A stretch of DNA of 44,627 nucleotides from a virus. The notes beneath the pieces were generated by a model. The model was not told the DNA's origin and ran no database searches. It saw only the letters and a list, made by a program, of their open reading frames with translations. Made by a program: the position numbers and the translations under genes. Position 1 is the stretch's first letter. Each line of letters begins with the position of its first letter. Location of the stretch: IMG/VR virus record IMGVR_UViG_3300031727_000002, positions 1 to 44,627 of that record; one strand, 5' to 3'. Shown here piece after piece: positions 29,551 through 44,627 of the stretch.

Positions 29551-29554
29551 CGGG

Positions 29555-30935: not shown

Positions 30936-31210
30936 CAGTCGTTGGCCGTGATACGAAGCCACTCGCCATCCCACGAACAACTCACGCTCATGTATCGGCG
31001 CATCGCAGCCTTGACTGCGCTGCCTTGCATGCTGCGTGAAGCCTCGTACGTCTTGGCCTGCACGATGAGGGTCGAACCCTTGTGGATGTCCAACTCGTCC
31101 ATCGCTTCGGCCCACGACAGTGGGGCACGTCGGGCTGGCTTGGATTCACCAGCCCGCTGTAGCACCCAGAGCCGCCGGGACGGCCTACGGCCTCGCTTAG
31201 GCGTTGCCAC
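30935..31210 (-). CDS. 91-aa protein of unknown function
   Basis: GTG start at 31210, overlapping the end of the Rad52-like gene by 14 bases. The N-terminus is strongly basic (MATPKRGRRPSRRLW), then a mixed segment with APLSWAEAMDELDIHKGSTLIVQA and VKAAMRRYMSVSCSWDGEWLRITAND. The shape suggests a small alpha/beta nucleic-acid-associated protein, but no family is recognised. The end couples to the next gene through TGATG. Confidence 0.5.
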   Translation of the reverse strand: MATPKRGRRPSRRLWVLQRAGESKPARRAPLSWAEAMDELDIHKGSTLIVQAKTYEASRSMQGSAVKAAMRRYMSVSCSWDGEWLRITAND

Positions 31211-32057
31211 CGGTCTGGCGGCAGCCCGGCGTGTCGCAGACCCAGAAGGCGGAGTACGCCTTGCCGGTGCGCTTGCTCACGCCAGCAGGCTGGACGCGGC
31301 CAGTGCCGTGGATGGGGCACACCCACGACGCCACCTTCTGCTCGGCAGCAGGCTCCGCAGGAGCCGCAGCCGCAGCGTCAGGAGCAGGAGCGGTGGCCTC
31401 ACTGATGGTCGCCTGCTGGGCAGGAGCAGCGGCAGGAGCCGCAGCCTGCGGAGCAGGAGCGGGAGCGGGAGCGGCAGGCGTGTCAGCACGCTCGTCGTAC
31501 AGGTCACGAGCGATGCCGAAGTGGACAGCAGCACGCTTGAAGGCGTCGCTGTACGCACCCTTGACCGGCTCGATGGTGGACGCAGTACCCACGTCGGTCT
31601 TGCGCACGGCACCGAAGCCGCGCAAGTTGATTGACAGCGTGCACTCGACGCTGCCGTCGTCGTGCTTGATGTACTCCGTGTACCAGTTGGTCGGGCCGAC
31701 CTCGCGGTCAAGCACCTCCATGACGTAGCGAGCGTCGACGTAGGCGAGTTGCTTGCCGCCCGGATTGCGGAAGTCCGCAGGCCGGTAGCCAATCTCGTCT
31801 TCGGGAGTCTCGCAGTTGAGAGCCGCCACTTGCTCAGGCGTGGCACCAAGCCCCGCCGCGATGAGTTCGTTCTGCTCCCGCAGTGCGTCCAACTCCAACT
31901 CGGACTTGGTGCGCCGCGAACGCTTGGTCTTCTTCTCCACTGGCTTGGTGTCCTGCTGCTCAGGCTCAGGAGAATCCTGAGACTCTTCGGCCAACTCGTC
32001 GGCGATGTCTTCTGCCGATGCGGTGTCGATGCCAGTGATGTCAGCGATGTCAGTCAC
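31197..32057 (-). CDS. Rad52-type single-strand annealing protein with zinc ribbon
   Basis: A 286-aa protein. Residues about 88-190 match the Rad52/22 family of phage annealing proteins: LAYVDARYVMEVLDREVGPTNW, a beta region VECTLSINLRGFG, then VGTASTIEPVKGAYSDAFKRAAVHFGIARDLYD (parts of this pattern, 155-188). A long Ala/Pro linker (193-240) leads to a C-terminal zinc ribbon with Cys247, His250, Cys274 and Cys279. It would coat and anneal single strands left by the exonuclease encoded two genes upstream. Start GTG 32057 overlaps the upstream TGA (GTGA) with GGAGAAG before it. An acidic N-terminal region precedes the core. Confidence 0.82.
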   Translation of the reverse strand: MTDIADITGIDTASAEDIADELAEESQDSPEPEQQDTKPVEKKTKRSRRTKSELELDALREQNELIAAGLGATPEQVAALNCETPEDEIGYRPADFRNPGGKQLAYVDARYVMEVLDREVGPTNWYTEYIKHDDGSVECTLSINLRGFGAVRKTDVGTASTIEPVKGAYSDAFKRAAVHFGIARDLYDERADTPAAPAPAPAPQAAAPAAAPAQQATISEATAPAPDAAAAAPAEPAAEQKVASWVCPIHGTGRVQPAGVSKRTGKAYSAFWVCDTPGCRQTGGNA

Positions 32058-32200
32058 TTGATTGACTTCTCCTTGATGGTGGCTTGGTCGAGGTTGCGTA
32101 CGCACTCCTTGACCTTGAGCATGCGACCCTTGGTCGGGTCGTTGGCTGCGTCTTGCGCCGCTACGTGCAGCGCCCACAGCGCATCCTTGACCCCGCTCAT
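32054..32200 (-). CDS. 48-aa protein of unknown function
   Basis: ATG at 32200 overlaps the upstream stop by four bases (ATGA), and the stop overlaps the Rad52-like start. The product (MSGVKDALWALHVAAQDAAN...) is helical and mildly basic at the C-terminus. It lies between a zinc-finger-like gene and the annealing protein, suggesting a recombination accessory. No family recognised. Confidence 0.55.
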   Translation of the reverse strand: MSGVKDALWALHVAAQDAANDPTKGRMLKVKECVRNLDQATIKEKSIK

Positions 32201-32409
32201 TCCGAGGCCAGTGTGGTGAAGGTGAAGGCGACCTCGTCGCCCACCGCAGCCTGCTTCATGGCGCGGCTGATTTGGACGTGGAAGTGCTTGGCGCACAGGT
32301 TCATCGCACCGTTGCCATTGTCTGCGGTGTAGCCCGCATCCTTGCCGCAGGGGCGGTCGCCGTTCACGCCGTTGATGATGTGGTCACAGACCACCTTGGA
32401 CTTACTCAC
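32197..32409 (-). CDS. 70-aa putative zinc-binding protein
   Basis: GTG start at 32409, overlapping the end of the exonuclease gene by eight bases. Cys8, Cys21, Cys39 and His42 (VVCDHI, RPCGKD, LCAKHFH) are spaced like a treble-clef or similar zinc site with the pair C-x2-H at its end. The remainder is a short helix and strand. Likely a small nucleic-acid-binding accessory of the recombination genes; function not known. Confidence 0.6.
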   Translation of the reverse strand: MSKSKVVCDHIINGVNGDRPCGKDAGYTADNGNGAMNLCAKHFHVQISRAMKQAAVGDEVAFTFTTLASE

Positions 32410-33190
32410 TCTTCGTGACTCCTTGTGTCAGTGCCTCGATGTTCTTGTCGTAGCGCTCCAGCCAGTGGGCCAGAGTGCACATCGACTCGAACGCCCGTCG
32501 CAACTCGGAGGTGACCTTGAGTTCGACGAACTCCCAGCCAGTCTCCGTGAGATGAAGCACGGCCAAGCCATGCGCAGACTTGAGCAACTGCGTCTGCTGC
32601 TCGTCCACGTCATCGCCCCACGCAACGAACTCGCCCAAGCCGTAGCCCATGAGTTGCAGTGCGTGGTCCGCGTAGATGTTCTTGCCCGTCTTGATGTCGA
32701 CGACCACGATTCGTCCGTCGGGCAGTTGGACGATGAGGTCGTATGACCCGGCGTAGCCGAGCGTGAGGTTGAAGACCTGACCCTCCTGAGCCAGTGTCTT
32801 CGCACCACTCTTCTCGACCCAGTCGTAGAACTGTGCGAGGAAGGGTGCAACGTCAGGGTCAGCAGCGCTGACCAACGTGTGCTTCTCCGCAGCCTCATGG
32901 ACGCGGGAGCCACGGTCAGCGGACTGCTCGCGCTCCGCATCAGCCGCCGCACGGATGCGACGACGGATGTCGATGGGCTGTTCGGTCTTGCCCTTGGCAG
33001 TGGTGCCGACCTTGGCGATGTCCGGGTCAGCGATGACCGCGTTCATCACGTTGGCCTGCATCCACTGCACGAGGCTGAACGGAACGCCCACGATGCGCCG
33101 CAGCGTGGTCACGCTGGGGTAGGACTGGCCGCGATACTCGTAGTACCGCTTGCCGTCACTGTCGGTCGTGGCGTTCTTGGGATTTGCCAT
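32402..33190 (-). CDS. PD-(D/E)XK exonuclease, RecB/Cas4-like
   Basis: A 262-aa nuclease. Seen motifs: SRVHEAAEKH (His98, the helix before the core), Glu136, GSYDLIV (Asp151), VVVDIKTGK (Asp165, Lys167) and ALQLMGY (Gln179 and Tyr183), the complete signature of RecB-family/Cas4-like PD-(D/E)XK exonucleases. It would resect ends for the Rad52-like annealer downstream, as in lambda Exo/Beta-type pairs. It is the first gene after a clear promoter (33220-33248) and has AAGGAGCGACATG at its start. Confidence 0.85.
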   Translation of the reverse strand: MANPKNATTDSDGKRYYEYRGQSYPSVTTLRRIVGVPFSLVQWMQANVMNAVIADPDIAKVGTTAKGKTEQPIDIRRRIRAAADAEREQSADRGSRVHEAAEKHTLVSAADPDVAPFLAQFYDWVEKSGAKTLAQEGQVFNLTLGYAGSYDLIVQLPDGRIVVVDIKTGKNIYADHALQLMGYGLGEFVAWGDDVDEQQTQLLKSAHGLAVLHLTETGWEFVELKVTSELRRAFESMCTLAHWLERYDKNIEALTQGVTKSE

Positions 33191-33219
33191 GTCGCTCCTT
33201 GTGTGTCGTGCCGGTAGTC

Positions 33220-33248
33220 AGTCTATGCCAACGTTGGCAATAGGTCAA
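33220..33248 (-). promoter_or_regulatory. Promoter with palindromic operator filling its spacer
   Basis: On the minus strand TTGACC (33248-33243) and TAGACT (33225-33220) are separated by exactly 17 bases, and the spacer is almost filled by the perfect 14-bp palindrome TGCCAACGTTGGCA (33226-33239). This is a classic arrangement for a repressor occluding RNA polymerase. It directs the exonuclease-Rad52-replication operon; the start codon is 30 bases downstream of the -10. Confidence 0.72.
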
Positions 33249-33553
33249 CCCCTAGATGTGGTCGCCGCAGCGGTCGCAGACTTGGTACCACCCCTTGCAG
33301 TCTCGGCACCAGTGCCGCTTGTAGGTGTGGCCTCGCCAGTCGCAGATGCGATGTCGGACGCCTTGAAAGCGGTGCGCCGCCATCCCGACCGGGCTTCCGC
33401 CTTGCGGAGATTCTTGTCGAGCAGTTCGTCGTGAAACTTGCATACCCAGATGCGCTTCCCTCCAGCCGTGCCCTTCTCCGTCCACGCTGCCACGGACGGC
33501 ATCGTGTGGCACGGGCCATTCGCAGTGCCGAAGGTACATGCCTTGTACGTCAT
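33245..33553 (-). CDS. 102-aa protein with cysteine-rich start; overlaps a second frame
   Basis: ATG at 33553 overlaps the upstream stop (ATGA). Residues 1-58 look genuine (MTYKACTFGTANGPCHTM..., KRIWVCKFHDELLDKNLRKAEA) with Cys6, Cys15, Cys38 and His41 as a possible zinc site. From about residue 60 the sequence becomes a low-complexity Ala/Thr/Gly stretch, while another frame over the same bases encodes a convincing zinc finger (33252-33383). Either two genes overlap fully or one zinc protein has suffered a frameshift. The start is reliable, the end less so. Confidence 0.5.
   Translation of the reverse strand: MTYKACTFGTANGPCHTMPSVAAWTEKGTAGGKRIWVCKFHDELLDKNLRKAEARSGWRRTAFKASDIASATGEATPTSGTGAETARGGTKSATAAATTSRG
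33252..33383 (-). CDS. 43-aa zinc-finger-like protein, overlapping frame
   Basis: Product MAAHRFQGVRHRICDWRGHTYKRHWCRDCKGWYQVCDRCGDHI (given in parts: MAAHRFQG, HRICDWRGHTYKRHWCRDC, WYQVCDRCGDHI). Five cysteines in HRIC, WCRDC and VCDRC with histidines form one or two zinc sites. It lies inside the previous gene in another frame, with only a weak purine stretch before the ATG, so it may need coupling, or it may be the true continuation of the upstream gene after a frameshift. No family recognised. Confidence 0.45.
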   Translation of the reverse strand: MAAHRFQGVRHRICDWRGHTYKRHWCRDCKGWYQVCDRCGDHI

Positions 33554-33801
33554 ACGCCGAGGCACTCGTCGTCGGTGTAGCGCACGGCCACAGCCAACAG
33601 GTTGTCGTAGTCGCCCGCCATCATCTCGTTCATCGCCTTGGCGATGTACTCCTTCGGCGCACCGGCCCGGCGGAGGCCACGCTGCACCGTGCCCATGATG
33701 GCGTAGGCATTGCCGTCCACGCCAACGAGTGGCTCACGGCTCAGGTACTGCGCCTGACCGATGACTCGCACCGGCAGGCCGGGGATGTTGATGGTGTCCA
33801 T
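33550..33801 (-). CDS. 83-aa conserved phage protein of unknown function
   Basis: Starts at ATG 33801 with GGAGCGACATG context, the same leader seen for several minus-strand genes. The central segment VGVDGNAYAIMGTVQRGLRRAG and GDYDNLLAVAVRY match a short protein pattern seen widely in phages and some bacteria (DGN-A-aIMG, then gDYdnLL). Function is unknown. A longer in-frame reading to 33987 overlaps the upstream membrane gene and is Arg-rich, so it is rejected. Confidence 0.7.
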   Translation of the reverse strand: MDTINIPGLPVRVIGQAQYLSREPLVGVDGNAYAIMGTVQRGLRRAGAPKEYIAKAMNEMMAGDYDNLLAVAVRYTDDECLGV

Positions 33802-33846
33802 GTCGCTCCTGTCTTGGCCCCGCTCGTCGTTGGCGGGATGCCGAAA

Positions 33847-33875
33847 GACTGGGGCCGAGTTGCCAACGGAGTCAA
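33847..33875 (-). promoter_or_regulatory. Weak promoter-like site with operator half-site
   Basis: In the 119-base gap before the 83-aa gene, TTGACT (33875-33870) is followed by GTTGGCAAC (33867-33859), which shares the GTTGGCA half-site of the operator at 33226-33239. The -10 is poor (CCAGTC at 17 bases). It may be a second, weaker repressor-controlled promoter. Confidence 0.3.
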
Positions 33876-33920
33876 GGGGCAGACCGTGCGCGTTGCTCCC
33901 TGCGCGAGTCTTCCTGCGCG

Positions 33921-34166
33921 TCAGTGCCTGAGCGTGCGCAGCGCAACGAGGATGAGCGCACTCGCGGCTGTGCCTGCCATCAGCCACGTGTCGGGTGCCG
34001 AAGCGCCCGCCACTACGAGTGCGAGTGCAACGTACATCACGAGAAGGGCATCGAGAAGGTGCATCCGAGGCCCGACGATTCGCTCTTCGGCTTGCTCGTA
34101 CAGGTCGACGAGTACTTCCCTTCGGGTCTTCGTCTCACCTCGTGACTCACCTCGCGTAGTCGGCAT
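33921..34166 (-). CDS. 81-aa two-span membrane protein
   Basis: ATG at 34166, overlapping the preceding gene by 20 bases. A charged N-terminus (MPTTRGESRGETKTRREV) is followed by two hydrophobic helices (about 37-56 and 61-77: LLDALLVMYVALALVVAG and MAGTAASALILVAL) and a basic end. No family recognised. It sits in the early region, not the lysis cassette, so it could concern host takeover or superinfection exclusion; unproven. Confidence 0.55.
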   Translation of the reverse strand: MPTTRGESRGETKTRREVLVDLYEQAEERIVGPRMHLLDALLVMYVALALVVAGASAPDTWLMAGTAASALILVALRTLRH

Positions 34167-34368
34167 GAAGCATCCTCACCTTCTGTCGCCGATTCAACTC
34201 GGCTTGCTCCCACTCGATGTTCTGCTGCTGGAGTTTCCACAGCCTGATGCGTTGCGCCAAGTCCTTGGCGACCATGAGCCTGTGGGCACACACGCCACAC
34301 AGGTAGCGGTCAGTGTCACGAAGCCAGCCGCTAGCGGGCCAGTCTCCGCACGCATCACACTCGTGCAT
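34147..34368 (-). CDS. 73-aa treble-clef/zinc-ribbon protein
   Basis: ATG at 34368 overlaps the upstream TGA (TGATG); GTG 34371 is an alternative start. Two CxxC knuckles (ECDACG and LCGVCAH) about 20 residues apart make a standard zinc ribbon; the rest is a charged helix (IRLWKLQQQNIEWEQAELNRRQK). Probably a small DNA- or protein-binding adaptor of the early operon. Function not known. Confidence 0.6.
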   Translation of the reverse strand: MHECDACGDWPASGWLRDTDRYLCGVCAHRLMVAKDLAQRIRLWKLQQQNIEWEQAELNRRQKVRMLHADYAR

Positions 34369-34775
34369 CACATCTCCCGTACTGGCGGCAGGACCGTCGT
34401 GATGACAGGAATCTTCCTGTCACGTGCCTGTCCCATGAGGTTGCTCGTGCCCTTGTTGTCGGCACCCTGCACCGGGAAGGCCAGCACGATGTCTGGCCTC
34501 CCGATGTCGAGCATCTCCTTGTTGCGGTAGTGCCCGGCTGCCCTGCCAAGGTTCTTCCAGTCGGCCTCGACGCCGACCACGTGCCAGCCCAGCGTGCGCG
34601 CAGCGATGGCGGCAAGGCGGTCGACACCACGTGCGTTGCCGTGGATGAGCGTGACCGGGTAGCCCTTGCCCTGCGCCTCACGCATCAGCACGTCGGTGAT
34701 GACACCGACGTGTTCCTTGACGGGGAGAGCCTCACGGCTCCCCGTCACGACGATGGTGAACGCTCGCTCCGGCAT
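34368..34775 (-). CDS. SLOG-superfamily nucleotide-binding protein (DUF2493-like)
   Basis: A 135-aa protein with a Rossmann-like nucleotide site: VTGSRE at the first strand, LIHGNARGVDRLAA (about 43-56) for the phosphate-binding loop, VEADWKNLGRAAGHYRNKEML for the sugar pocket, and DIVLAFPV...GTSNLM at the end. These are the hallmarks of DUF2493, a SLOG relative of DprA/LOG. Such proteins can bind or cleave nucleotides or nucleotide signals. In phages the role is unknown; interference with nucleotide-signal defence is one possibility. It overlaps both neighbours by one base. Confidence 0.75.
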   Translation of the reverse strand: MPERAFTIVVTGSREALPVKEHVGVITDVLMREAQGKGYPVTLIHGNARGVDRLAAIAARTLGWHVVGVEADWKNLGRAAGHYRNKEMLDIGRPDIVLAFPVQGADNKGTSNLMGQARDRKIPVITTVLPPVREM

Positions 34776-35251
34776 CAGTGGACCGGCCTGTCGGGGCGCT
34801 GCTTGGCCTCACGCTGCTCGACCATCGACTTCAGTGTGTTCAAGGCAGCGTTCACTTCCTGCTGGGATTCGGCACGGTCCGCCTCCTCCCGCCGGGACTT
34901 GGTCGACACGACACAGGCCCACGCAGGGTCCACGTCGTACGCCTGATACATCACGTAGAGCGTGGCCGTCTTGCGGTCACACGAGAACTCCAGCGTGTCG
35001 CCGATGGCGATGTGCCCATGCTTGTGCCAGCGGTACGAGTTGATGCGAAGCAGCAACTCCACCTTCTTCATCCACCGCTCGTCGTCCGCCATGTAGCGTG
35101 CGAAGTTCTCGCGCCCCATGCGGTAGGTGCGGATGTACTGGTTCGTCTCCACCTTGACCGCACCACGTGGATGCTTGTGCGAATCCTCGTGCGGGTCGTG
35201 GATGTCCGTCCACTTGCTCATGTTGAAGCCTTCACTGAACAGGCTTGTCAT
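34775..35251 (-). CDS. 158-aa protein of unknown function
   Basis: Start chosen at ATG 35251, which overlaps the upstream stop (ATGA); an internal Met ten residues later (MSKWTDIHDP) is an alternative. The protein is polar with a helical end. It has KVETNQYIRTYRMGRENFARYMADDERWMKKVELLLRINSYRW in two parts (residues about 30-75), Cys at about 92 in FSCDRK and at about 115 in WACVV. No family recognised. Sits between HNH and SLOG genes. Confidence 0.55.
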   Translation of the reverse strand: MTSLFSEGFNMSKWTDIHDPHEDSHKHPRGAVKVETNQYIRTYRMGRENFARYMADDERWMKKVELLLRINSYRWHKHGHIAIGDTLEFSCDRKTATLYVMYQAYDVDPAWACVVSTKSRREEADRAESQQEVNAALNTLKSMVEQREAKQRPDRPVH

Positions 35252-35553
35252 TCGAAGATGTCCCTTTCCAGAATCAGTGTCAGGTGTGCCGGATTCACAC
35301 ACCGCTTTACGCCACACCGTGGAACGCAAGCCAAGACTTGGTGCCACGGAACCTGTCGCAGTCTGCGTGCGAGCAAGGCGTACGGGTAGTAGCCCTGCTC
35401 GCCAGACCAGATGTGATGCGTGTCATGCTCACGCACCCTTGCCCACCACGCAGCGGGTAGACGTGCGTCGTCGAAGACCCAGTCATCGCCGAAGGTGAGG
35501 GTGTTATCCCAAGCGCTTGATGCTGACCTCAAGGCGCGAGCCTCTGTCGTCAT
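35248..35553 (-). CDS. HNH endonuclease-like protein
   Basis: A 101-aa protein. The pattern RLPAAWWARVREHDTHHIWSGEQGYYPYALLARR, in pieces, matches the start of phage HNH proteins (F-W-x-K-V ... W-x-G ... GYG), and the C-terminal CVPRCGVKRCVNPAHL has the C-x-x-C...NPxHL ending of HNH_3 families. ATG 35553 is chosen because it retains the AAWWARV segment; this overlaps the RusA gene end by 50 bases. The typical first Cys is replaced by His in this version (THHIW). Possibly a homing-type or packaging-associated endonuclease. Confidence 0.65.
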   Translation of the reverse strand: MTTEARALRSASSAWDNTLTFGDDWVFDDARLPAAWWARVREHDTHHIWSGEQGYYPYALLARRLRQVPWHQVLACVPRCGVKRCVNPAHLTLILERDIFE

Positions 35554-35938
35554 CGGCGTACTCCTTCTTCGCCATGAGCCGGGTGACCTGAGAGTCATCG
35601 GCGAAGACGATGTGCGTCAGTGAGTCCAAGGCAGCACGAGCCAACTTGTCCACGTCAGGGCGTTTCACGTGGAACTTAGGGGCGCTGGGTCGAAGACCCT
35701 TCTTCCCGTAGTGCCCTCGTGGTCGCTCGAAGACGAAGGTCAGGACGACTCGGAACGAGGAGTCCTTGTCGACGTTGGCTTCACCCCACTCTCGTGCGGC
35801 TGCGATGCCCACACGGTCACGCCACAGCCCAAGGGCCGACGCGTTAGAGGCTGCGACCTTGCGGCCATACGCAACCATGCTGCCCTGTGCCACTGGCGTT
35901 CCGGGCACGACGAAGAACGTCGATGGTTCCGATGACAT
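35504..35938 (-). CDS. rusA: RusA-family Holliday junction resolvase
   Basis: A 144-aa protein with the characteristic RusA layout: FFVVPGTPVAQGSM near the start, KRPDVDKLARAALDSL (metal-binding aspartates in RPDVDK), then IVFADDSQVTRLMAKKEYAD with the second acidic pair. RusA cuts four-way junctions symmetrically to resolve recombination or branched replication products, fitting the nearby exonuclease and Rad52-like genes. ATG 35938 (MSSEPST) is used; the upstream extension is Ser/Pro-rich and overlaps the previous gene. A GGGTC-GAA-GACCC inverted repeat lies in the middle. Confidence 0.88.
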   Translation of the reverse strand: MSSEPSTFFVVPGTPVAQGSMVAYGRKVAASNASALGLWRDRVGIAAAREWGEANVDKDSSFRVVLTFVFERPRGHYGKKGLRPSAPKFHVKRPDVDKLARAALDSLTHIVFADDSQVTRLMAKKEYADDDRGSRLEVSIKRLG

Positions 35939-35942
35939 TCGC

Positions 35943-36281
35943 TCACCCCTTTCGGTGTAGCCGCTCGGTGATGGTGTCGACTTGCTCGTGGTCAAGGGGC
36001 TTGACCTCACCTTCCTCGTCTGCGATTCCCGTGATGACCACCATCCCGCTGATGTGGTCGCCGGGCCAGAGTGCGTTGTTCATCAAGGTCGTAGCCTTGG
36101 TGTTCATCTTCAGGCGATTGCCGAAGGTGTCACGCTTCGTCTCGTTCATCCACATGACGAACGGTAGTTCGTCGTGTGACAGCACCTCGACATCTCCTTC
36201 GCAGTAGTGCTGCAAAGCCTTGAGTGTGGGCGTTCCTTCGACCACGCGGTCGACACCCTCGGTGTCAAGCAGGATGTACAT
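35943..36281 (-). CDS. 112-aa protein, weakly DUF3846-like
   Basis: ATG 36281 in AGGAGAGCGACATG context. The C-terminal half GNRLKMNTKATTLMNNALWPGDHISGMVVITGIADEEGEV, in parts, faintly resembles small phage proteins of the DUF3846 type (a conserved N-x-x-A-T and D-x-I-x-G-x-x-V-I pattern), but no certain assignment can be made. It ends four bases before the RusA start. Confidence 0.5.
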   Translation of the reverse strand: MYILLDTEGVDRVVEGTPTLKALQHYCEGDVEVLSHDELPFVMWMNETKRDTFGNRLKMNTKATTLMNNALWPGDHISGMVVITGIADEEGEVKPLDHEQVDTITERLHRKG

Positions 36282-37452: not shown

Positions 37453-37725
37453 TCGCCTTTCCTGATGTCGCTTACCGGAGGGGTCCGGCTCCTGATGTCA
37501 GTATTTGACAGCGCCCCGATTCTGTCAAGTGCCAGTGATTCCCTTGGAATCACCGTGCGCTACGCGCTTGCGCGCACAGATGTGAGAGCAAGGTGTGCCC
37601 AAGCGTAGGGGCGACGCGTGGAGAAGTGAGTCGAAGCCTCATATGTGCCACCTGTATGGCACACGTGTAGGTAAATGCGCTTACGACCCACGTACGTGTG
37701 GGCTAAACCGTGGGAGATATAGAGA
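37453..37725. other. Intergenic control region between the two minus-strand operons
   Basis: About 320 bases without a convincing gene (37453-37773). It holds the promoter at 37500-37528, a 16-base direct repeat GAGAAGTGAGKCGAAG (37621-37636 and 37756-37771) flanking the hairpin at 37726-37754, an inverted repeat TGTGCCA/TGGCACA with a 6-base gap around 37645-37664, and the palindrome CACGTACGTG (37689-37698). No tRNA or small gene seen. Confidence 0.5.
37500..37528 (-). promoter_or_regulatory. Promoter with hyphenated inverted repeat
   Basis: On the minus strand, TTGACA (37528-37523, exact consensus) and AATACT (37505-37500) are 17 bases apart. On the plus strand TTGACAG (37505-37511) and CTGTCAA (37522-37528) form a perfect 7-bp inverted repeat separated by 10 bases, so the -35 doubles as an operator arm. 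The first gene downstream starts at 37452. Confidence 0.65.
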
Positions 37726-37754
37726 AAGCCCCTCCGGCTTTGCCGGAGGGGCTT
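37726..37754 (-). terminator. Strong terminator of the MoxR/VWA operon
   Basis: AAGCCCCTCCGGC (37726-37738) and GCCGGAGGGGCTT (37742-37754): a perfect 13-bp stem with a TTT loop, 20 bases beyond the stop of the 60-aa gene. On the minus strand the hairpin is followed by TTTCTCTATA, a short T-rich tract, the expected layout of an intrinsic terminator for leftward transcription. Confidence 0.85.
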
Positions 37755-37773
37755 CGAGAAGTGAGGCGAAGGG

Positions 37774-37956
37774 TTACTTGCTACGCAAGTCCCAGAGGTA
37801 GTCGGCCCACGCTTCGTCGTCGCGGTAGTCGCGGTAGTCAGTCGAAGACTGACGAGCGTCGAGCCAGCGATTCACTTGGCGAATGCCAAGCGTAAGGGCG
37901 ACGGCCACCATCAGGACTCCTGCCAAAGGCAGGAGGTTGAAGAGGTCGATGCTCAT
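37774..37956 (-). CDS. 60-aa single-span membrane protein
   Basis: Last gene of the operon. ATG at 37956 with GGGAG upstream, overlapping the previous stop (ATGA). Residues 5-26 (LFNLLPLAGVLMVAVALTLGIR) form one membrane helix; the C-terminal half is acidic and aromatic (DYRDYRDDEAWADYLWDL) and probably cytoplasmic. Function unknown; perhaps a membrane anchor for the MoxR/VWA complex, inferred only from the operon. Confidence 0.6.
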   Translation of the reverse strand: MSIDLFNLLPLAGVLMVAVALTLGIRQVNRWLDARQSSTDYRDYRDDEAWADYLWDLRSK

Positions 37957-38105
37957 GCCACGTACTCCCTGACCTCGTGAGACGCAGCCTTAGAGGCTGC
38001 GACCACCTTGGCCTTACCGCTGTGACGAGAGTTGCCGAAGCGGTGAGAAGTGCACAGAGTGCACTTCACCTGACGGCGAGGCTTGTTGCGCTTGTAGTTA
38101 GCCAT
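37953..38105 (-). CDS. 50-aa basic zinc-knuckle protein
   Basis: ATG at 38105 in GGAGTAGCGACATG context; the product starts MANYKRNKPRRQVKCTLC and ends SHEVREYVA. CTLC plus His21 and His28 could bind zinc. Small basic proteins of the pattern R-R-x-V-K/R-C-T-x-C-T are frequent in phages. Two perfect hairpins of 8 and 9 bp fall within its 150 bases. Function unknown; a nucleic-acid-binding role is plausible. Confidence 0.65.
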   Translation of the reverse strand: MANYKRNKPRRQVKCTLCTSHRFGNSRHSGKAKVVAASKAASHEVREYVA

Positions 38106-38120
38106 GTCGCTACTCCTTCC

Positions 38121-38144
38121 CGGCTCCTCTAGATAGAGGAGCCG
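38121..38144. repeat. Hairpin overlapping the VWA-gene stop codon
   Basis: CGGCTCCTCTA (38121-38131) and TAGAGGAGCCG (38134-38144), a perfect 11-bp inverted repeat with a 2-base centre. The UAG stop of the VWA gene is at 38129-38131, so the stem contains it, and AAGGAG for the next gene follows. It may regulate termination/reinitiation or processing. Confidence 0.75.
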
Positions 38145-40534
38145 ATGACCTGTGCCAGCCTCTGGCTGAAGACCGAGGCATTGCTGTCGTACGCCACCAC
38201 GTCGTCGCTGCCGTACATGGCGTGCTGTGTGTACTCGCGGAGGTCCGCACTGATGGCGACGCTGACGATGCGGAGTCCACGCTTGCGGTACTCGTCCACC
38301 ACCGCACGGGTGTGGTTCTCGCCATCGGCGTAAGCCGGAGCGCCGTCGCTGATGACGATGACCACGCCACGCTGATTGGGCTTCAGCCCACTCAGCACGT
38401 TCTCAGCGGTCATGGCGACGGCGAAGCCGTCTTCGTTGCCATTCATGCTGAGTGTGAGCAAGTCGTCCATGTAGACCAGCGGTTCACCGCTGTTCCAGAT
38501 GGGGATGTAGACCGGACCGCTGCCGTAGGCAGTGGTATGAGCGGCGACGAATCCCTCTGCCCAAGGCAGAGACTCGAAGGCACCGGCAAGGTCACGTGCT
38601 GCTTGAGCAGCACGAACGATGTTGTTACCCCAAGACATGCTGCCACTGGCATCGACGAGGATGCCGACCTTGACCCGCTGCGGAGCAGCGGAGTCAGGGC
38701 GCTGGAAGACGCGAGTCTCGCCGTAGGCGAGGCGACCAACCCGGCGACGGTCGATGCGACCGGTTCGCTGTGCGAACTCAGGCGCACCGGGGCCGCGCTT
38801 GGCCGAGTGCATGACGCTGGCGAGCATGCGCTGCGCCTGAACGTCGGACTTGGTCCGACGGTAGCCCTGCTTGCGCTCACCCTTGTGGCTGTGCACTTCG
38901 CCGTAGGCGATGCTCGCCGTCATCTGTGTCTCGAAGCGCTGCCAGTTGTCTCCGGCGTAGCCGTAGACCTCGTCGGCATGCTTGTCGAGGCGGACTTCGG
39001 TGATGGTGCGTCGGCGAAGCCGACCACCAGCCATGTACTCGAACGTCATCGTCTTGTTCGTCTTCGACGAAGCGGCGTGATGGCTGATGGCGGACTGCCG
39101 AGCGATGTCGTCAGGGTCTTCGGCCATCTTGGTGCCACAACCAGTGTCCTGCTGCTGAATATCAGCAGCAGTGGTCGCGTCGCTCGTGTTCTGCGAGTCA
39201 TCCGCGACACCGCGCTCAACCTTGCTCTCGGTGTCGTCGTCAGCGCTGTCGAGGCCACGCTGGTCGTCAGACTCGGACTCGCTGTCGGAGACAGCGTCGC
39301 TGTCGTTGTCGCCATCGTCGCCATCGGCGTCGTCGCCATCGCCGTCGGTGTCGCCGTCGGACTGCTCGTCGCCTTCCCCATCGGGGAAGGACGGGCCACC
39401 ACCGAAGTCTTCGAAGTCATCGCCACCTTCGGTGTCGATGCCGTCGTCGTCGCCTTCGGCGTCGTCGTCACCGGACTCGGTGCCATCGGCACCGTCGCCA
39501 TCCTCACCTTCGGTGTCATCCGACTCCGGCTCTTCGCCGCGACCGGCGGAGTCATCAGACTCCGTCGACTCGGACTCACCGTCATCGCCACCCGACGACG
39601 TAGTCGTCGAATCGGGGTCGCCATCCTTGGAGTCACTCGGCTCTTCAGAGCCACCCTCGCCCGGCTCACCCTTGCCCTCACCCGGCTCGCCGGTAGGCGT
39701 GCCGCACGTGGTGGGCGGAGGCGGCGGGTCGGTGTCTTCGACACCGTCGAGGATGCGGTCGACAGCCTCTTCGACCAGCGCCTTGACATCGGAGATGTCA
39801 TCGGCAGTCTCGGAACGAGCGGCCCAATCGAGCCACGAGTCACGAAGTGACTCAAGCCCGGTCCAGTCCTGCTCCCAAGGGTATCGGCTTGCCGATACGA
39901 AGGCAGCGAGCCGACCCTTGACATCGGAGATGTCAGGACGAGTGCCAGCCTTGCTGACGGAGTCGAACTTGTTCGACACCCACCACATGGCGACCTTCAA
40001 AGCCTCGGCGAAGCCGGGATACCGCTGCTGCATTCCGGCTTCCAGCCGGAGGTCGCGGCAGACGTTGTCTGCTGCATTGGCGATGGCCTGAGCGCGCTCG
40101 CTCGACCAGCGAGCCTTGGCCCACGTCCGCATGGACTCCGAATCCTCGGAGTCGAAGATGATGTGGCCCACTTCGTGGTAGGCCAAGCCGGTGAACACCG
40201 CGACGAGTTGACCGAAGGTCAACGCACCGTCAGCGTAGTGGCTCCAAGGCTTGGTGCCGACGAACACTACGTGTTCGTCATGGTTGGTGGCAGCCGGAGC
40301 GTTCTGGGCCTTGCCCAGCATGAGCCGGTAGGTCACGTCACCATCGGCAAGGCCGATGACGAACGAGTTCAGCGACTTCTCAGCAGCGCTGAGAGCCAGC
40401 GTCACCTCGTCCTGCGACGTGACCGGGAGCGTCGCTCGTGCCGCTTCGTCCCACGAAGCGGTGAGCCAAGGCAGCGGGTCTTCCGCTGGGACAGCCGGTT
40501 TCACCGGCTGCCACTGTGGTCGTGCCATGACCAT
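38129..40534 (-). CDS. CobT-like protein: HExxH metallopeptidase-like domain plus VWA domain
   Basis: An 801-aa protein. N-terminus: AYHEVGHIIF with HEVGH at 120-124 and NVCRDLRLE at 157-165, the zinc-site and acidic motif of CobT/DUF2201-like proteins. Residues about 265-455 are a long acidic linker of Asp, Glu, Ser and Gly, as in CobT. The C-terminus (about 623-801) is a von Willebrand factor A domain with MIDAS DASGS (628-632) and ISDG (about 727-730). It lies 20 bases before the MoxR-like ATPase gene end, so the pair is a CobS/CobT-type AAA+/VWA machine. Its substrate in a phage is unknown. Its coding sequence is packed with mini-hairpins. Confidence 0.82.
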   Translation of the reverse strand: MVMARPQWQPVKPAVPAEDPLPWLTASWDEAARATLPVTSQDEVTLALSAAEKSLNSFVIGLADGDVTYRLMLGKAQNAPAATNHDEHVVFVGTKPWSHYADGALTFGQLVAVFTGLAYHEVGHIIFDSEDSESMRTWAKARWSSERAQAIANAADNVCRDLRLEAGMQQRYPGFAEALKVAMWWVSNKFDSVSKAGTRPDISDVKGRLAAFVSASRYPWEQDWTGLESLRDSWLDWAARSETADDISDVKALVEEAVDRILDGVEDTDPPPPPTTCGTPTGEPGEGKGEPGEGGSEEPSDSKDGDPDSTTTSSGGDDGESESTESDDSAGRGEEPESDDTEGEDGDGADGTESGDDDAEGDDDGIDTEGGDDFEDFGGGPSFPDGEGDEQSDGDTDGDGDDADGDDGDNDSDAVSDSESESDDQRGLDSADDDTESKVERGVADDSQNTSDATTAADIQQQDTGCGTKMAEDPDDIARQSAISHHAASSKTNKTMTFEYMAGGRLRRRTITEVRLDKHADEVYGYAGDNWQRFETQMTASIAYGEVHSHKGERKQGYRRTKSDVQAQRMLASVMHSAKRGPGAPEFAQRTGRIDRRRVGRLAYGETRVFQRPDSAAPQRVKVGILVDASGSMSWGNNIVRAAQAARDLAGAFESLPWAEGFVAAHTTAYGSGPVYIPIWNSGEPLVYMDDLLTLSMNGNEDGFAVAMTAENVLSGLKPNQRGVVIVISDGAPAYADGENHTRAVVDEYRKRGLRIVSVAISADLREYTQHAMYGSDDVVAYDSNASVFSQRLAQVIGSSI

Positions 40535-40549
40535 GTCTGGTTCCTTCCT

Positions 40550-40565
40550 CGACCCTAAAGGGTCG
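40550..40565. repeat. Hairpin at the MoxR-gene stop codon
   Basis: CGACCC-TAAA-GGGTCG (plus-strand reading) is a 6-bp stem whose left arm/loop contains the UAG of the MoxR gene (40555-40557). The SD AGGAAGGA for the VWA gene follows about ten bases later, so the hairpin sits between the two coupled genes, like the one at 38121-38144. Confidence 0.65.
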
Positions 40566-42120
40566 TCGTCGTGGTGCTACCGGAGGTAGCAGTGCTTGGC
40601 GTCACTCCAGCCGGAGAATCCGGCTCGGTGCGCTGGTTGGGCGGCTCGTAGCCGCGAAGAACGCCGTTCACGGCGTTCCAGACCTTGTGCCGCTGGGACG
40701 AAGTCCCACCCTCGTCATCGTAGGAGTCGACGAAGGCCGCTTCGGCAGCCTCGACCGGTGCCAAAGGCACCGACGCCATGACGGCGTTGCAAGCCGCCAC
40801 CAACTGCCGGGTCGAAACTCCCATCGGGAGTTCCCCGTTGGCAGCCATGACGCGGGTCTGCTTGGCTACCTGTACGAACCGCTTTGCGGTTTCGCCATCG
40901 GTGCCGGTCTGGTCCCGAAGCACCTTGACCTCACTCCGTTCCGGTGGAAAGTCCACCGGAATCGTGTGCGTCGAGCGGTTCACGAAGGCCAAGTCCAGCA
41001 CCGTGGTGCCGCTGAAAGCGGCACCGATGTTGGCGGTGCCGACGAAGAAGACGGCAGGGTCAATCAAGATTGACCGCTTGGCATCGGCGACGTAAATCGT
41101 GCCGGTCCCATCAAGGATGGGAAGGGTCGCGTTCAGCGCGCCGGGTGTCTCCACACGGGTAATCTCGTCCAACAGGACGAGACGAGGGATGCCGCCGTAA
41201 GGGCCATCGGCCCTTACCGCCTCGATGAACTGTGATGGAACGTAGTCCATCACCATGACGCCGTTCTCGCTGGTCGGCTGGTTGTAACCAGCCCAGTCGC
41301 CGAAGTCTCGAAGCCCGGCAACGTCGACCTTCCAGAATGGAAGGTTGTGCGAGCGAGCCAAGTCCATCGCCGAGACGGTCTTCCCGGCCCCAGAGGGGCC
41401 ACGGAGGATGACGAAGGTCCGTTCCCCAGCAGAATGCTGGGCCAGAGCGTTCTCCAACTTCCGCTTCGTAGAAGCGTCCTGCCAGACTTCGAACTTGGCC
41501 TTCTTGGGCAGCATGCGGAAGATTCCGGGGTGCTTCTCAGGCAGACCGGAGGTCTTGTGCGCTGAAGATGCGGGCGTCTTCGGCGTGCTGCTGGCAGTCT
41601 CGGCCTTCGGCTCACTGGCGACCGGCTCCGTAGGAGCCGCCTTGGCGATGGCCGGAGTCTTGGTGCCGGTGGCAGAGCCACCGCCCACGAGGCTCCAGTA
41701 GGTCGCCGTGCCCTTCTTGTTCGTCCGAAGGACGATTGCTGCCGGAAGACTCACGCTCTTGCGCTTGAATCCAAGAGCCATGCTCTTGGTGCGCCAGTAC
41801 TTGCGCAAGACCGGCGGCTTGCTGCTGGGCAGTCCGTCAAGGACGAAGTCCTTGAGCAGGCGATTGAGCCGAGTAGCAGCGCTGCTGTCCGCGTTGCCAT
41901 TGATGGCAACACGCACGGCAGACCACTTGTCGGCGACGTTGTCGACAGCCAGAGCGATGGTCGCTGCCTCGATGCCAGAGGCATCGTCGATGCGAACGAC
42001 CACCGTCGAAGCGACGGTGTCATAGCGGTACGACGCTTGTGCGTCGAGCGCCACGACCGACGACGATGCCATCGCCGACGGCTTGACTGACACCAGAGGT
42101 GTCAGGGTGGTGTAGGCCAC
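40555..42120 (-). CDS. MoxR/CobS-like AAA+ ATPase
   Basis: A 521-aa protein. Residues 1-190 are an unrecognised N-terminal region plus an Ala/Thr/Pro-rich linker; the AAA+ core follows: Walker A GPSGAGKT (241-248), Walker B LVLLDEI (314-320), sensor 1 FVGTANIG (about 359-366) and a downstream helical lid. This order and the DYVPSQFIEAV/DLAFVNRS segments match the MoxR/CobS branch. The tail is Ser/Thr-rich. MoxR ATPases act with VWA proteins to remodel or load metal centres and complexes; here the partner is the next gene. It carries about 25 hairpins, more than any other gene. Confidence 0.85.
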   Translation of the reverse strand: MAYTTLTPLVSVKPSAMASSSVVALDAQASYRYDTVASTVVVRIDDASGIEAATIALAVDNVADKWSAVRVAINGNADSSAATRLNRLLKDFVLDGLPSSKPPVLRKYWRTKSMALGFKRKSVSLPAAIVLRTNKKGTATYWSLVGGGSATGTKTPAIAKAAPTEPVASEPKAETASSTPKTPASSAHKTSGLPEKHPGIFRMLPKKAKFEVWQDASTKRKLENALAQHSAGERTFVILRGPSGAGKTVSAMDLARSHNLPFWKVDVAGLRDFGDWAGYNQPTSENGVMVMDYVPSQFIEAVRADGPYGGIPRLVLLDEITRVETPGALNATLPILDGTGTIYVADAKRSILIDPAVFFVGTANIGAAFSGTTVLDLAFVNRSTHTIPVDFPPERSEVKVLRDQTGTDGETAKRFVQVAKQTRVMAANGELPMGVSTRQLVAACNAVMASVPLAPVEAAEAAFVDSYDDEGGTSSQRHKVWNAVNGVLRGYEPPNQRTEPDSPAGVTPSTATSGSTTTTTL

Positions 42121-42138
42121 TGTGCCAGACTCCTTCCT

Positions 42139-42255
42139 ATCCCCGAAGGGGATGCTGCTGTGTTGCCGCCCTGTCGCCGAGCGGCGTCGAATAGAGACCT
42201 ATGGTCTCAGATGCCAACACTGTTGTCAAATCTACGCTACCGTCGAAGACGGTAG
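42139..42255 (-). promoter_or_regulatory. Leader and candidate promoter of the MoxR gene
   Basis: On the minus strand TTGACA (42229-42224) is an exact -35; a good -10 is not obvious (GACCAT at 17 bases). TGCCAAC-ACT-GTTGTCA (42212-42228) is close to the operator at 33226-33239. GAGACC-TAT-GGTCTC (42194-42208) is a further perfect inverted repeat over the expected start area. CTACCGTC-GAA-GACGGTAG (42237-42255) is an 8-bp hairpin right behind the stop of the upstream gene, probably a terminator or processing site. ATCCCC-GAA-GGGGAT (42139-42153) lies shortly before the ribosome site. Confidence 0.5.
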
Positions 42256-42540
42256 TCAGGCGGCTGCCTGACGGCTACGCCGTCGTGCAAGCGTCACGCG
42301 CTTGTCGCTTCGAGGGTCGAACACCGAAACGGTGATGTCGGTGACAGTCACGAGTGAGGCAAAGCCTCGTGCGATGTCACTGCATGTACGTGCCCGTGTC
42401 GAAGCGACGGACTGCTTGCCGTCACCATCGACGTAGTCGATGACGTAGGTGGGATGCGGCAGTCCCGTTGCCTTCATCGCCCTCCTACGGAGGGCGGAGG
42501 GGCGAATCGCCTTGTCGAATCGAGAAGCGGTCTTCTTCAT
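42256..42540 (-). CDS. 94-aa basic protein of unknown function
   Basis: ATG 42540 with AGGAGA ten bases upstream. N- and C-termini are very basic (MKKTASRFDKAIRPSALRRRAMK and RVTLARRRSRQ), with a beta-rich centre (TYVIDYVDGDGKQSVAST, VTVTDITVSVFDP). No family recognised. Preceded by a hairpin-CACAC leader (42560-42570) and followed by the 42237-42255 hairpin, so it looks like an individually insulated gene. Confidence 0.6.
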   Translation of the reverse strand: MKKTASRFDKAIRPSALRRRAMKATGLPHPTYVIDYVDGDGKQSVASTRARTCSDIARGFASLVTVTDITVSVFDPRSDKRVTLARRRSRQAAA

Positions 42541-42559
42541 GGTGTCAGTCTCCTGTGTG

Positions 42560-42570
42560 GTCCGAAGGAC
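42560..42570 (-). promoter_or_regulatory. Hairpin-CACAC leader 1
   Basis: GTCC-GAA-GGAC on the plus strand (transcript GUCC-UUC-GGAC), followed in the transcript by CACAC and AGGAGA before the 94-aa gene. One of four leaders with the same loop and tail but different stems. Confidence 0.6.
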
Positions 42571-42603
42571 TCGTGTGCCAGACGGTGTGTGATGAAGCGG
42601 CTG

Positions 42604-42948
42604 TCAGGGCTTGGCGACGACGGTTGGCCGATACTTCGTATCGGCCGCGACCAGCAGTTCAGCCGGAGTCCACTTGCCGGGTGTGAGACCAAAGGTCTCA
42701 CTGTCGGGGAGGATGTAGCCAAGAGCCGTCCAATCGCCCGTGGAGTTCGCGTCATGCTTCGCAACGAACTCCGTAGCGTTGGCGGCGCTGTCGCCGAGAT
42801 AGACCCTGACGGCGTCGTCTTCGACGACGAACACGGCGATGAACGATGGGCAGCCCATCTTCTCGCGCTGCTCTTCGAGCCGTGCGCTGAAGAAGTCCGG
42901 TGCCTTGCCGTGGTCCGTCTCTACGAGACGAGCGTTGATGTTTGCCAT
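42604..42948 (-). CDS. 114-aa protein of unknown function
   Basis: ATG 42948 with AGGAGACATCTCGACATG context. Acidic and mixed alpha/beta: KAPDFFSARLEEQREKMGCPSFIAVFVVEDDAVRVYLGDSAANATEF in parts, then GDWTALGYILPDSETFGLTPGKW. No family recognised. Contains two strong hairpins (42626-42646 with a 9-bp stem, 42683-42701 with an 8-bp stem). Confidence 0.6.
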   Translation of the reverse strand: MANINARLVETDHGKAPDFFSARLEEQREKMGCPSFIAVFVVEDDAVRVYLGDSAANATEFVAKHDANSTGDWTALGYILPDSETFGLTPGKWTPAELLVAADTKYRPTVVAKP

Positions 42949-42985
42949 GTCGAGATGTCTCCTGTGGTGTGTCGAGATGTGTGTG

Positions 42986-42996
42986 GACCGAAGGTC
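42986..42996 (-). promoter_or_regulatory. Hairpin-CACAC leader 2
   Basis: GACC-GAA-GGTC on the plus strand, followed in the transcript by CACACAC and the AGGAGA of the 114-aa gene. Same loop as the other leaders, compensated stem. Confidence 0.6.
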
Positions 42997-43023
42997 TATG
43001 CGTGTCTCCTCGTGCTACAGCGG

Positions 43024-43266
43024 CTACCAGACTGGGCAGAATGGGCAACCACTCACTTCGTGAGTGAAAGCGGCGGCGTCGCAGTCTTGACCACACATCG
43101 CCGTCCCTTCGTTGCACGCTGTGGCGTGCAGCGAAGCCTCGTGCGACAGTCGTGCGTCAAGGGTGGTGTCGTCGGCGGCGTCTTCATCCGGCCCATCGAA
43201 GATGGGATGCGAGTCGTCGCTGATGGAATCGTCGTAGACGAAGGTGCCGATGCTGAAGAAGGTCAT
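43024..43266 (-). CDS. 80-aa acidic, cysteine/histidine-containing protein
   Basis: ATG 43266 with AGGAGATTGCGACATG context; upstream Arg/Ser-rich extension rejected. Many Asp in the first half (VYDDSISDDSHPIFDGPDEDAADD), then ACNEGTAMCGQDC and SGCPFCPVW, a set of six cysteines with histidines, possibly a zinc site. No family recognised. Confidence 0.6.
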   Translation of the reverse strand: MTFFSIGTFVYDDSISDDSHPIFDGPDEDAADDTTLDARLSHEASLHATACNEGTAMCGQDCDAAAFTHEVSGCPFCPVW

Positions 43267-43296
43267 GTCGCAATCTCCTGTGTGGTGAGGGGTGTG

Positions 43297-43307
43297 GGGC
43301 GAAGCCC
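43297..43307 (-). promoter_or_regulatory. Hairpin-CACAC leader 3
   Basis: GGGC-GAA-GCCC on the plus strand, followed in the transcript by CACACC...CACAC and AGGAGA of the 80-aa gene. Confidence 0.6.
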
Positions 43308-43339
43308 TGTGCGCTTCACCCCGTGTCAGATTCGGAGGG

Positions 43340-43858
43340 CTACTTGGCCGCACCCTCTTCGAGGGTGACGAAGAAGGGAACCCTCATCTGGCGAAGAAGG
43401 TCGTAGACCTTCTCGGGCGACCAGTCGTCGCTGCACTCGTCATCGAAGATGACGCTCAGGGGCCAAGCCTCCTGCTCGCCGAAGACGAAGGCTGCCATGA
43501 CGGTCTGCTCGTACCTGTCGAAATCACGCACAAGGAACGCCAGCGTTTCCTCGGTCGTGTACATGCCGTCAGAGTGCTCGGCTCGATGGTCTTCGAGGTC
43601 TACGACCTCCCACGACTCGTCGTTGTCGTCTACGACGACCATCAGGACCGTCTTGCCCTTCATCACGCTCTCTTGGAGAGCGAGGGTGGCGGCGACGAAA
43701 TCGGTGTTCCGGGTGGTGGTGACTTCGTCACCGAAGACGGTCTTCAGGGTGGTCATGGCGATGTTCTCCTCGTTCGTGGTGATGTGTGAGCCGAAGGCGG
43801 TGTGTGTCACCGCGCTAGGAGTGCTGTCGACCTTGGTGGCGACGGTTCTGTGGTTCAT
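43340..43858 (-). CDS. 172-aa acidic protein, first gene of the operon
   Basis: Two starts are plausible. ATG 43858 has a perfect GGAGGT five bases upstream (43869-43864), itself inside the hairpin AGACC-TCC-GGTCT. ATG 43756 (138 aa, MTTLKTVFGDEV) has AGGAGA about nine bases upstream and the hairpin-like leader GCC-GAA-GGC (43790-43798) in its N-terminal coding extension. The protein is acidic and mixed alpha/beta (VLMVVVDDNDESWEVVDLEDH, QTVMAAFVFGEQEAWPLSVIFDDE). No family recognised. The longer form is given; the shorter may be the main product. Confidence 0.6.
   Translation of the reverse strand: MNHRTVATKVDSTPSAVTHTAFGSHITTNEENIAMTTLKTVFGDEVTTTRNTDFVAATLALQESVMKGKTVLMVVVDDNDESWEVVDLEDHRAEHSDGMYTTEETLAFLVRDFDRYEQTVMAAFVFGEQEAWPLSVIFDDECSDDWSPEKVYDLLRQMRVPFFVTLEEGAAK
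43790..43798 (-). promoter_or_regulatory. Hairpin-CACAC leader 4 (possible internal leader)
   Basis: GCC-GAA-GGC on the plus strand, flanked by CACAC-type sequence in the transcript, before the internal start at 43756. It belongs to the same family as the other leaders, which supports a real start at 43756. Confidence 0.5.
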
Positions 43859-44627
43859 GCGAGACCTCCGGTCTTCGTGGGTGACCACCGCGACCTTGCT
43901 GGCCGCTGTCGTGGCCCTTCAATCGGACCACAGGAAGCCGTCTTCCTTGCGCGCATGGACCGCAGGGAGAACGCGCGCCGTCCCACGGGAGGAAGTCGAT
44001 TCGGCTCAAGGCGCAGGCGTGCGCGCTTAGGTCACGCGCACACAGAACGGAAACATGGGAAATGGCGATTCCGTGGCATTTGCAAGCAAATGCCCGTATG
44101 TGTCCGCGCACCGTTCCGCGTACGGCCCTTCGGGCCGCAGTGCTTGGCATCACACGAGTGCCAAGGTTGACTCTTCACTGACGTAGTCAGTGCTTGTGAG
44201 TATCACTTCATCGCACTGCTTGCAGTGCGAATCGCTAGGTCACAGGGCAGAGCAGCATGGTGTCACCGTAGGTGGACGGGGCATTGCTCTTCGCGTGTTG
44301 CCACGCTGGTGCGTGTCATCACGCGTATATGTGAGACCAACGCTTCGTTGCCTAGGTATGTGGCCCCGTAGGGGCCGATTACAAGCGACGGCCAAGTCGG
44401 GTACCCCTCGGGCTTTCTGAGGGAAATCCCGGCGGCAGGGAATGCTCTTCGACGCACTTCGGTACGTCTCGTTGGCATTCCCCGCTCTGACGGGGTACCC
44501 GTCACACGGCGGCTTGGTCTAACCGTGACCTCAAGCCGCCGGAACAGGTGTGCTTCGACGAAGGGTCGAAGCACAACAGAAGAGCCGTGGCGCTGAACGC
44601 CACGGCTTCAGTAGTAGTAGTGAGGTG
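43859..44627. other. Non-coding right end with many stem-loops
   Basis: About 770 bases with no supported gene; reading frames here lack ribosome sites and have unlikely composition. Stem-loops: 44075-44094 (9 bp), 44123-44137, 44143-44165, 44176-44192 (7 bp), 44211-44230 (9 bp), 44362-44376, a branched pair 44438-44482 and 44508-44540, 44550-44574 (10 bp), 44583-44607 (10 bp). GGGTACCC-like sites occur twice (about 44399-44406 and 44493-44500). It ends with AGTAGTAGTAGTG (44610-44622). No clear promoter was identified, though one must serve the operon starting at 43858. It may contain the packaging site or a structured RNA. Confidence 0.6.
43862..43874 (-). promoter_or_regulatory. Hairpin sequestering the ribosome site
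   Basis: AGACC-TCC-GGTCT (plus strand) places the complement of GGAGGT in its right arm and loop, so the ribosome site of the first gene would be folded away in the RNA. A translational switch is possible. Confidence 0.5.

Follow-up and report, generated by a model that had tools for sequence, protein, structure and literature searches.

Why should the right end of a tailed-phage genome be crowded with short perfect hairpins, inside genes and between them alike? The question is raised by IMG/VR virus record IMGVR_UViG_3300031727_000002, whose 44,627 nucleotides (nt) are called the window here, and in particular by its positions 37,726-44,627, in which a first-pass annotation made from the sequence alone had read at least 48 such hairpins. 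A systematic count bears this out: 74 perfect inverted repeats with stems of at least 7 bp and loops of 2-5 nt lie in this part (10.7 per kb), as against 49 (1.3 per kb) in the first 37.7 kb, and the corresponding means of 20 dinucleotide shuffles are 2.3 (maximum 5) and 13.9. A looser cut-off (stem at least 6 bp, loop 2-8 nt) yields 119 inverted repeats in the right part, where about 24% of the bases lie inside hairpins. Their density is equal in coding (14.0 per kb) and non-coding (13.5 per kb) DNA, and the densest 3 kb hold 44 hairpins, compared with 8 in the densest 3 kb of 1.4 Mb of other fetched loci. The VWA and MoxR genes of this region contain 28 and 23 triloop hairpins (stem at least 6 bp), against means of 2.2 and 1.2 after shuffling of synonymous codons, which rules out codon bias as the cause; by the same measure triloops in the terminase, portal, helicase and exonuclease genes come close to the chance level. 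The dense block begins near 37.7 kb, with a few hairpins out to 37.3 kb, and not near 36.3 kb as had been thought. Its ends fall close to the limits of one gene unit, comprising small genes, a CobS/MoxR-like ATPase gene and a CobT-like VWA gene. The virion genes had been credited with occasional hairpins only; the virion and replication part (positions 1-37,700) shows a mild excess of its own, with short perfect inverted repeats at about 3.5 times the shuffled expectation and no triloop signature.

The hairpins share a shape. What the first-pass annotation missed is that the loop is specifically 3 nt long: with stems of at least 6 bp, 81 of the 119 are triloops, and between 37.0 and 44.6 kb loops of 3, 2 and 4 nt number 81, 14 and 8, the rest being near background. 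Triloop stems peak at 7 bp (25, 31, 15 and 7 cases for 6, 7, 8 and 9 bp), and both sharp peaks are common to the array-bearing phages described below, with loop 3 exceeding loop 4 by 3- to 10-fold and 4-nt loops showing no preference for GNRA or UUCG motifs. Over four phages the closing pair begins with C in 167 of 213 triloops (91 expected) and with G in only 16 (71 expected), while the loops are enriched for GNA (50, with 20 expected) and TNC (74, with 20 expected). Taken on either strand, GNA or its complement TNC thus accounts for 124 of the 213; the preference for the template strand is weak, and is reversed in phage G014. GNA loops closed by C-G are known from very stable DNA mini-hairpins (PMC4686876). 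Stem length rises with AT content (rho -0.22, p 0.0015), so that stability matters; the available tables of nearest-neighbour energies for RNA and DNA triloops do not separate the loops. No sequence is shared: the arm cores are distinct in 217 of 234 cases, and the hairpins therefore do not constitute a repeat family.

The placement of the hairpins is equally constrained. Overlap is almost absent, and gaps shorter than 10 nt occur in only 7 of 321 cases, against 48 in simulations that jitter positions (minimum 35). A period of about 49 nt seemed significant at one point and vanished once local density and a 10-nt minimum gap were simulated, 150 of 300 simulations reaching it. Within genes the loop starts in codon phases 0, 2 and 1 in 75, 56 and 17 cases (four phages). 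The rare phase matches third positions exclusively to third positions, which implies that the hairpins are built mainly via wobble positions. Hairpins beginning in different codon phases had been taken to show that codon bias does not explain them; the conclusion stands on the codon shuffles, and the phases themselves are not uniform. Most of the start sites checked are in linkers free of hairpins (the exceptions, both as automatically called, are one VWA and one MoxR start in phage G012), and frequently a hairpin stands 0-6 nt ahead of the Shine-Dalgarno sequence. Reading in mRNA sense, one meets a short c(TTC)g hairpin ahead of small genes at window positions 42540, 42948 and 43766, followed by a CACACA-type stretch and then AGGAG.

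Is the array peculiar to this genome? We collected relatives as 80 IMG/VR loci found with a terminase profile, G023 being reached through the ATPase; single-protein queries with the ATPase or VWA gene in viral contigs returned no relatives, and a DNA search of a phage collection gave no match. Arrays of the same architecture are present in G012, in the close pair G013/G014, at the end of contig G015 and in G023. An assembly artefact is unlikely, since reading frames remain open and the array is seen again in other public contigs. In G012, G014 and G023 the array covers the ATPase-VWA unit and the adjoining genes are at background; in G012 its limits are the end of the VWA gene and a point just inside the predicted transcription start, and in G023 it stops before a terminator-like site that is followed by a promoter-like site. 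The same gene pair occurs free of hairpins in four relatives (G016, G018, G020 and L054), whose operon G+C is 0.68-0.70, compared with 0.60-0.65 in the carriers. G020 has replication genes in common with G012 and yet lacks the array, and an all-against-all gene comparison found no gene exclusive to array phages. Carriers do not form a clade: ATPase and terminase trees cannot be reconciled with fewer than three changes of state, and well-supported branches force two of these, so the array has been gained or lost repeatedly. Hairpin positions are at most weakly shared among distant carriers (2 of 9 comparisons at p<0.03). From one phage to another the density and shape of the hairpins recur and their positions do not, which suggests that the array is maintained as a whole. 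The sole terminase relative found in genome contigs, L153, belongs to an actinobacterial metagenome-assembled genome (MAG Salinibacterium sp. FW300_bin.11), a weak hint of an actinobacterial host group.

How individual hairpins change can be followed in G013 and G014, which are 97% identical and were compared over the conserved part of the array (2.6% divergence). Differences number only 9 among 878 stem bases (23 expected) and 8 among 192 loop bases (5 expected). With the G013 hairpins as reference, third codon positions differ at 4 of 287 sites in stems, 63 of 1094 outside hairpins and 4 of 60 in loops (p 0.001). Compensatory changes in stems, which the first-pass annotation had proposed to look for in relatives, are seen: ACTCAG..CTGAGT has become ACTGAG..CTCAGT, and inside the VWA gene ACGATGCC-AGA-GGCATCGT corresponds to ACGAGTCC-AGA-GGACTCGT, a replacement that alters the protein from DDARGIV to DESRGLV. 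There is one clear case of an inverted loop, GA having turned into TC in a 14-bp hairpin. Three hairpin births, in which 2, 4-5 and 2 bases of one arm were replaced by the complement of the other arm, compare with 0.23 such events expected from point mutation. Clusters of multi-base changes are also found elsewhere in this pair and are by themselves weak evidence; recombination with diverged relatives may be another source of the multi-base births. Upstream of the ATPase gene lies a stretch of about 2 kb (L113 600-3000; G014 31085-33070) that is very hairpin-dense, includes two 14-bp hairpins and diverges between the two phages by about 20%, against 3% elsewhere. The VWA gene of both is called as two same-frame open reading frames (ORFs) split by a stop codon (L113 4519-6699).

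We regard as firm the existence and architecture of the array, its confinement to one unit, its recurrence and the maintained stems of the close pair. To explain them we favour, at rather less than an even chance, an array of DNA hairpins kept in one transcription unit by template switching together with selection. One transcription unit of this family of uncultured phages would carry an end-to-end series of short hairpins that form in DNA; template switching would supply new hairpins and re-perfect damaged ones, and selection would retain them. They would extrude on the negatively supercoiled or transiently single-stranded DNA of the transcribed unit, as do hairpins of the same geometry in phage N4, and the extruded array would set the ease of transcription or repair of the unit. 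That template switching supplies the hairpins is likely; the array may also affect how the unit is transcribed, or its physical state. Held more tentatively still is a fuller version, in which an operon-length array of sequence-independent DNA mini-hairpins is collectively selected to control supercoiling, strand opening, repair or transcription, and has been repeatedly gained. Several observations weigh against what we favour. Four relatives carry the genes without hairpins, and the array is therefore not essential to those genes; when the G014 hairpins serve as reference, the deficit of third-position changes (10 of 298 in stems, 58 of 1083 outside) is not significant (p 0.18); and that the hairpins form in DNA is itself something we infer. 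The array also follows the limits of a transcript, a pattern more directly accounted for by a role in RNA, and there is a slight excess of G-U, in mRNA sense, at the pair that ends the stem (69 against 46.6 overall; 42 against 30.7 when matched for phase). The last two points belong to the proposal that the mRNA of the unit is selected as a string of hairpins, for stability to RNases, translation control or the binding of a hairpin-specific protein, as does the finding that most start sites fall in linkers free of hairpins, one hairpin standing immediately 5' of the Shine-Dalgarno sequence. In a set of 149 perfect 7-bp triloop hairpins plus neighbours with one mismatch, however, single internal G-U pairs are at background in mRNA sense (5 against 5.8) although A-T makes up a third of the stem pairs; the loops are C-G-closed triloops instead of GNRA or UUCG tetraloops; GNA loops occur on both strands, with a bias relative to the mRNA that varies between phages; and hairpins avoid abutting one another, which in RNA would do no harm. 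Stems without internal G-U and triloops of the DNA type argue against ordinary structured mRNA. For the annotation's structured-transcript suggestion, the operon boundaries and hairpin-free ribosome-binding sites remain in its favour while stem pairing and loop type do not fit. We consider selection at the RNA level unlikely but conceivable, since an RNA-selected array could also be kept free of G-U by template switching.

The same hairpins might owe nothing to function. If single strands of this unit are exposed, for example by strong transcription, frequent snap-back template switching could convert imperfect inverted repeats to perfect triloop hairpins, and purifying selection on protein and ribosome-binding sites would merely limit where they survive. 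Template switching is known for homogenising arms, inverting spacers and favouring short ones (PMC8604942; PMC8794818), and the array resembles its quasi-palindromic products in having perfect arms without G-U, short spacers, an inverted loop and multi-base births in one arm; that positions are not conserved between distant relatives, and that codon phases needing fewer amino-acid changes are preferred, also agrees with it. Unlike those products, which are known as scattered single events, the present hairpins saturate one gene unit and respect a minimum linker. Template switching acting wherever the sequence suits it is at odds with the background level of the flanking genes in four genomes: the process would have to operate in a single unit in each of several separate lineages and spare the same genes in four relatives. 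The scarcity of neighbours less than 10 nt apart is not predicted by it either, and the multi-base clusters elsewhere in G013/G014 weaken the cluster evidence. The annotation's template-switch suggestion thus gains from the perfect arms, the loop inversion and the one-arm births, and leaves the restriction to one unit and the 10-nt linker unexplained. A purely mutational origin is possible, if on balance improbable, and we regard it as nearly as likely as the reading we favour. Primase initiation sites, which the annotation also suggested, find no support here: the array keeps to a transcription unit, and such hairpins are missing from the replication genes and from the rest of the genome. Phage N4 offers yet another precedent. 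The hairpins of its early promoters have a 5-7 bp stem, a 3-nt G..A loop and a C-G closing pair and extrude from supercoiled DNA in vivo, at a superhelical density of -0.035 (PMC4496689), and its P1 oligonucleotide has a GAA loop (PMC12633501). The most common hairpin of the array has this geometry (loop 3, stem 7, C-G closing), which is what recommends the idea that the array consists of promoters for an N4-type virion RNA polymerase (vRNAP). N4, though, has three such hairpins, which share conserved bases and are situated upstream of transcription starts; those of the array number about a hundred, are unrelated in sequence, lack conserved stem bases and extend across whole genes. Nor did an N4-like polymerase emerge from the giant virion protein: sequence searches, including those against solved structures, gave nothing, and a fold search with one segment gave nothing significant, only common helix matches, the N4 chains that Foldseek listed at E 2-4 and TM below 0.1 being noise. 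Promoters of this type are very improbable.

To our knowledge no described counterpart exists and no known system explains the array. Structured RNA-virus genomes and mRNAs tolerate G-U and use varied loops. The array is like them in being laid over coding sequence at synonymous sites, and unlike them in its background level of internal G-U, its 3-nt loop and the double-stranded DNA genome in which it resides. REP, BIME and Rickettsia palindromic elements (RPE) are copies of one mobile sequence; they too amount to many hairpins per genome, some of them in genes, and were rejected as an explanation since copies would share sequence, which these arms do not. Small inverted repeats are in excess throughout bacterial genomes; in Escherichia coli they occur at regulatory and termination sites and are avoided just before start codons (PMC6060812). 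The hairpins of the array are likewise short, perfect and rare right before start codons; unlike those of the E. coli map (PMC6060812) they have a single loop length and occupy coding sequence throughout, 14 to the kb. A limited search of open papers turned up no relevant account of such an array in a phage operon.

The remainder of the window is organised as a tailed-phage genome, with terminase, portal, two giant virion proteins, capsid and fibre genes on the + strand, and a replication gene set on the - strand, on which the array genes are also encoded. The domain matches of the two larger array genes (Table 1) identify them as a predicted CobS/CobT-like phage pair, a MoxR/CbbQ-type AAA+ ATPase gene adjoining a VWA CobT-like gene. 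The hairpins were rejected as intrinsic terminators (2 terminator-like sites in 36.0-44.6 kb, with 5.3 in shuffles), and an Rfam search of the window, L110, L113 and L115 found no family match at gathering score. One giant virion protein (positions 6859-14145) has 2428 residues, with relatives of up to 2935, and no sequence match in Pfam, PHROGs or PDB; a conserved segment of 875 residues is predicted to be mostly helical (mean pLDDT 75). Positions 28639-29742 give a weak match to archaeo-eukaryotic primases (PF22548, below cut-off), beside a RecA/DnaB-like helicase gene at 27318-28646, and a recombination set at 31197-36010 includes an Erf-like annealing protein, an exonuclease and a RusA-like resolvase.

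Table 1. Genes, representative hairpins and possible signals of the array region (positions in the window; loops in capitals)
Feature	Position	Strand	Remarks
Promoter-like TTGACA-17-AATACT	37500..37528	-	Placed to start the array-free replication set; 1 found, 1.0 expected in shuffles
13-bp stem, loop TTT, downstream edge of array	37726..37754		Terminator-like by eye; T tract weak, absent from terminator-scan list
Small ORF within array	37774..37956	-	3 triloop hairpins
Small ORF within array	37953..38105	-	2 triloop hairpins
CobT-like VWA-domain gene	38129..40534	-	PF11775 CobT_C 2.8e-5; phrog_1576, phrog_17276
Hairpin ctgctgctga-ATA-tcagcagcag	39149..39171		
Hairpin gacgaacac-TAC-gtgttcgtc	40259..40279		
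Hairpin immediately 5' of VWA Shine-Dalgarno	40550..40565		
MoxR/CobS-like AAA+ ATPase gene	40555..42120	-	PF08406 CbbQ_C 2.4e-9; phrog_249 porphyrin biosynthesis 9e-23
Hairpin ttccggtgga-AAG-tccaccggaa	40939..40961		
Hairpin gtaagggcc-ATC-ggcccttac	41197..41217		
Hairpin ggcccc-AGA-ggggcc	41386..41400		Over ATPase P-loop codons
Hairpin ccaagagc-CAT-gctcttgg	41771..41789		
Hairpin tcaaggac-GAA-gtccttga	41837..41855		c(GAA)g loop
Hairpin caccgtcg-AAG-cgacggtg	42001..42019		
Hairpin ctgacacc-AGA-ggtgtcag	42087..42105		
Hairpin immediately 5' of MoxR Shine-Dalgarno	42139..42153		Sense atcccc-TTC-ggggat, then AGGAAGGAG
Small ORF within array	42256..42540	-	
Small ORF within array	42604..42948	-	
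Hairpin ggccgatac-TTC-gtatcggcc	42626..42646		In small ORF
Small ORF within array	43340..43888	-	7 triloop hairpins
Hairpin tcgcactgc-TT-gcagtgcga	44211..44230		Non-coding DNA
10-bp stem agccgtggcg-CTGAA-cgccacggct, right end	44583..44607		Terminator-like on - strand in scan

The saturation of coding DNA with hairpins, in one operon and in several lineages, fits no described element that we found. If the array is selected, secondary structure of DNA (or RNA) would act as a distributed, sequence-independent signal that spans an operon and shapes the proteins it encodes. If it is mutational, it would be the strongest locus-specific template-switching system known to us, with natural replicates for the birth and upkeep of hairpins. 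Either reading can be tested in this phage family, as close relatives with and without the array exist.

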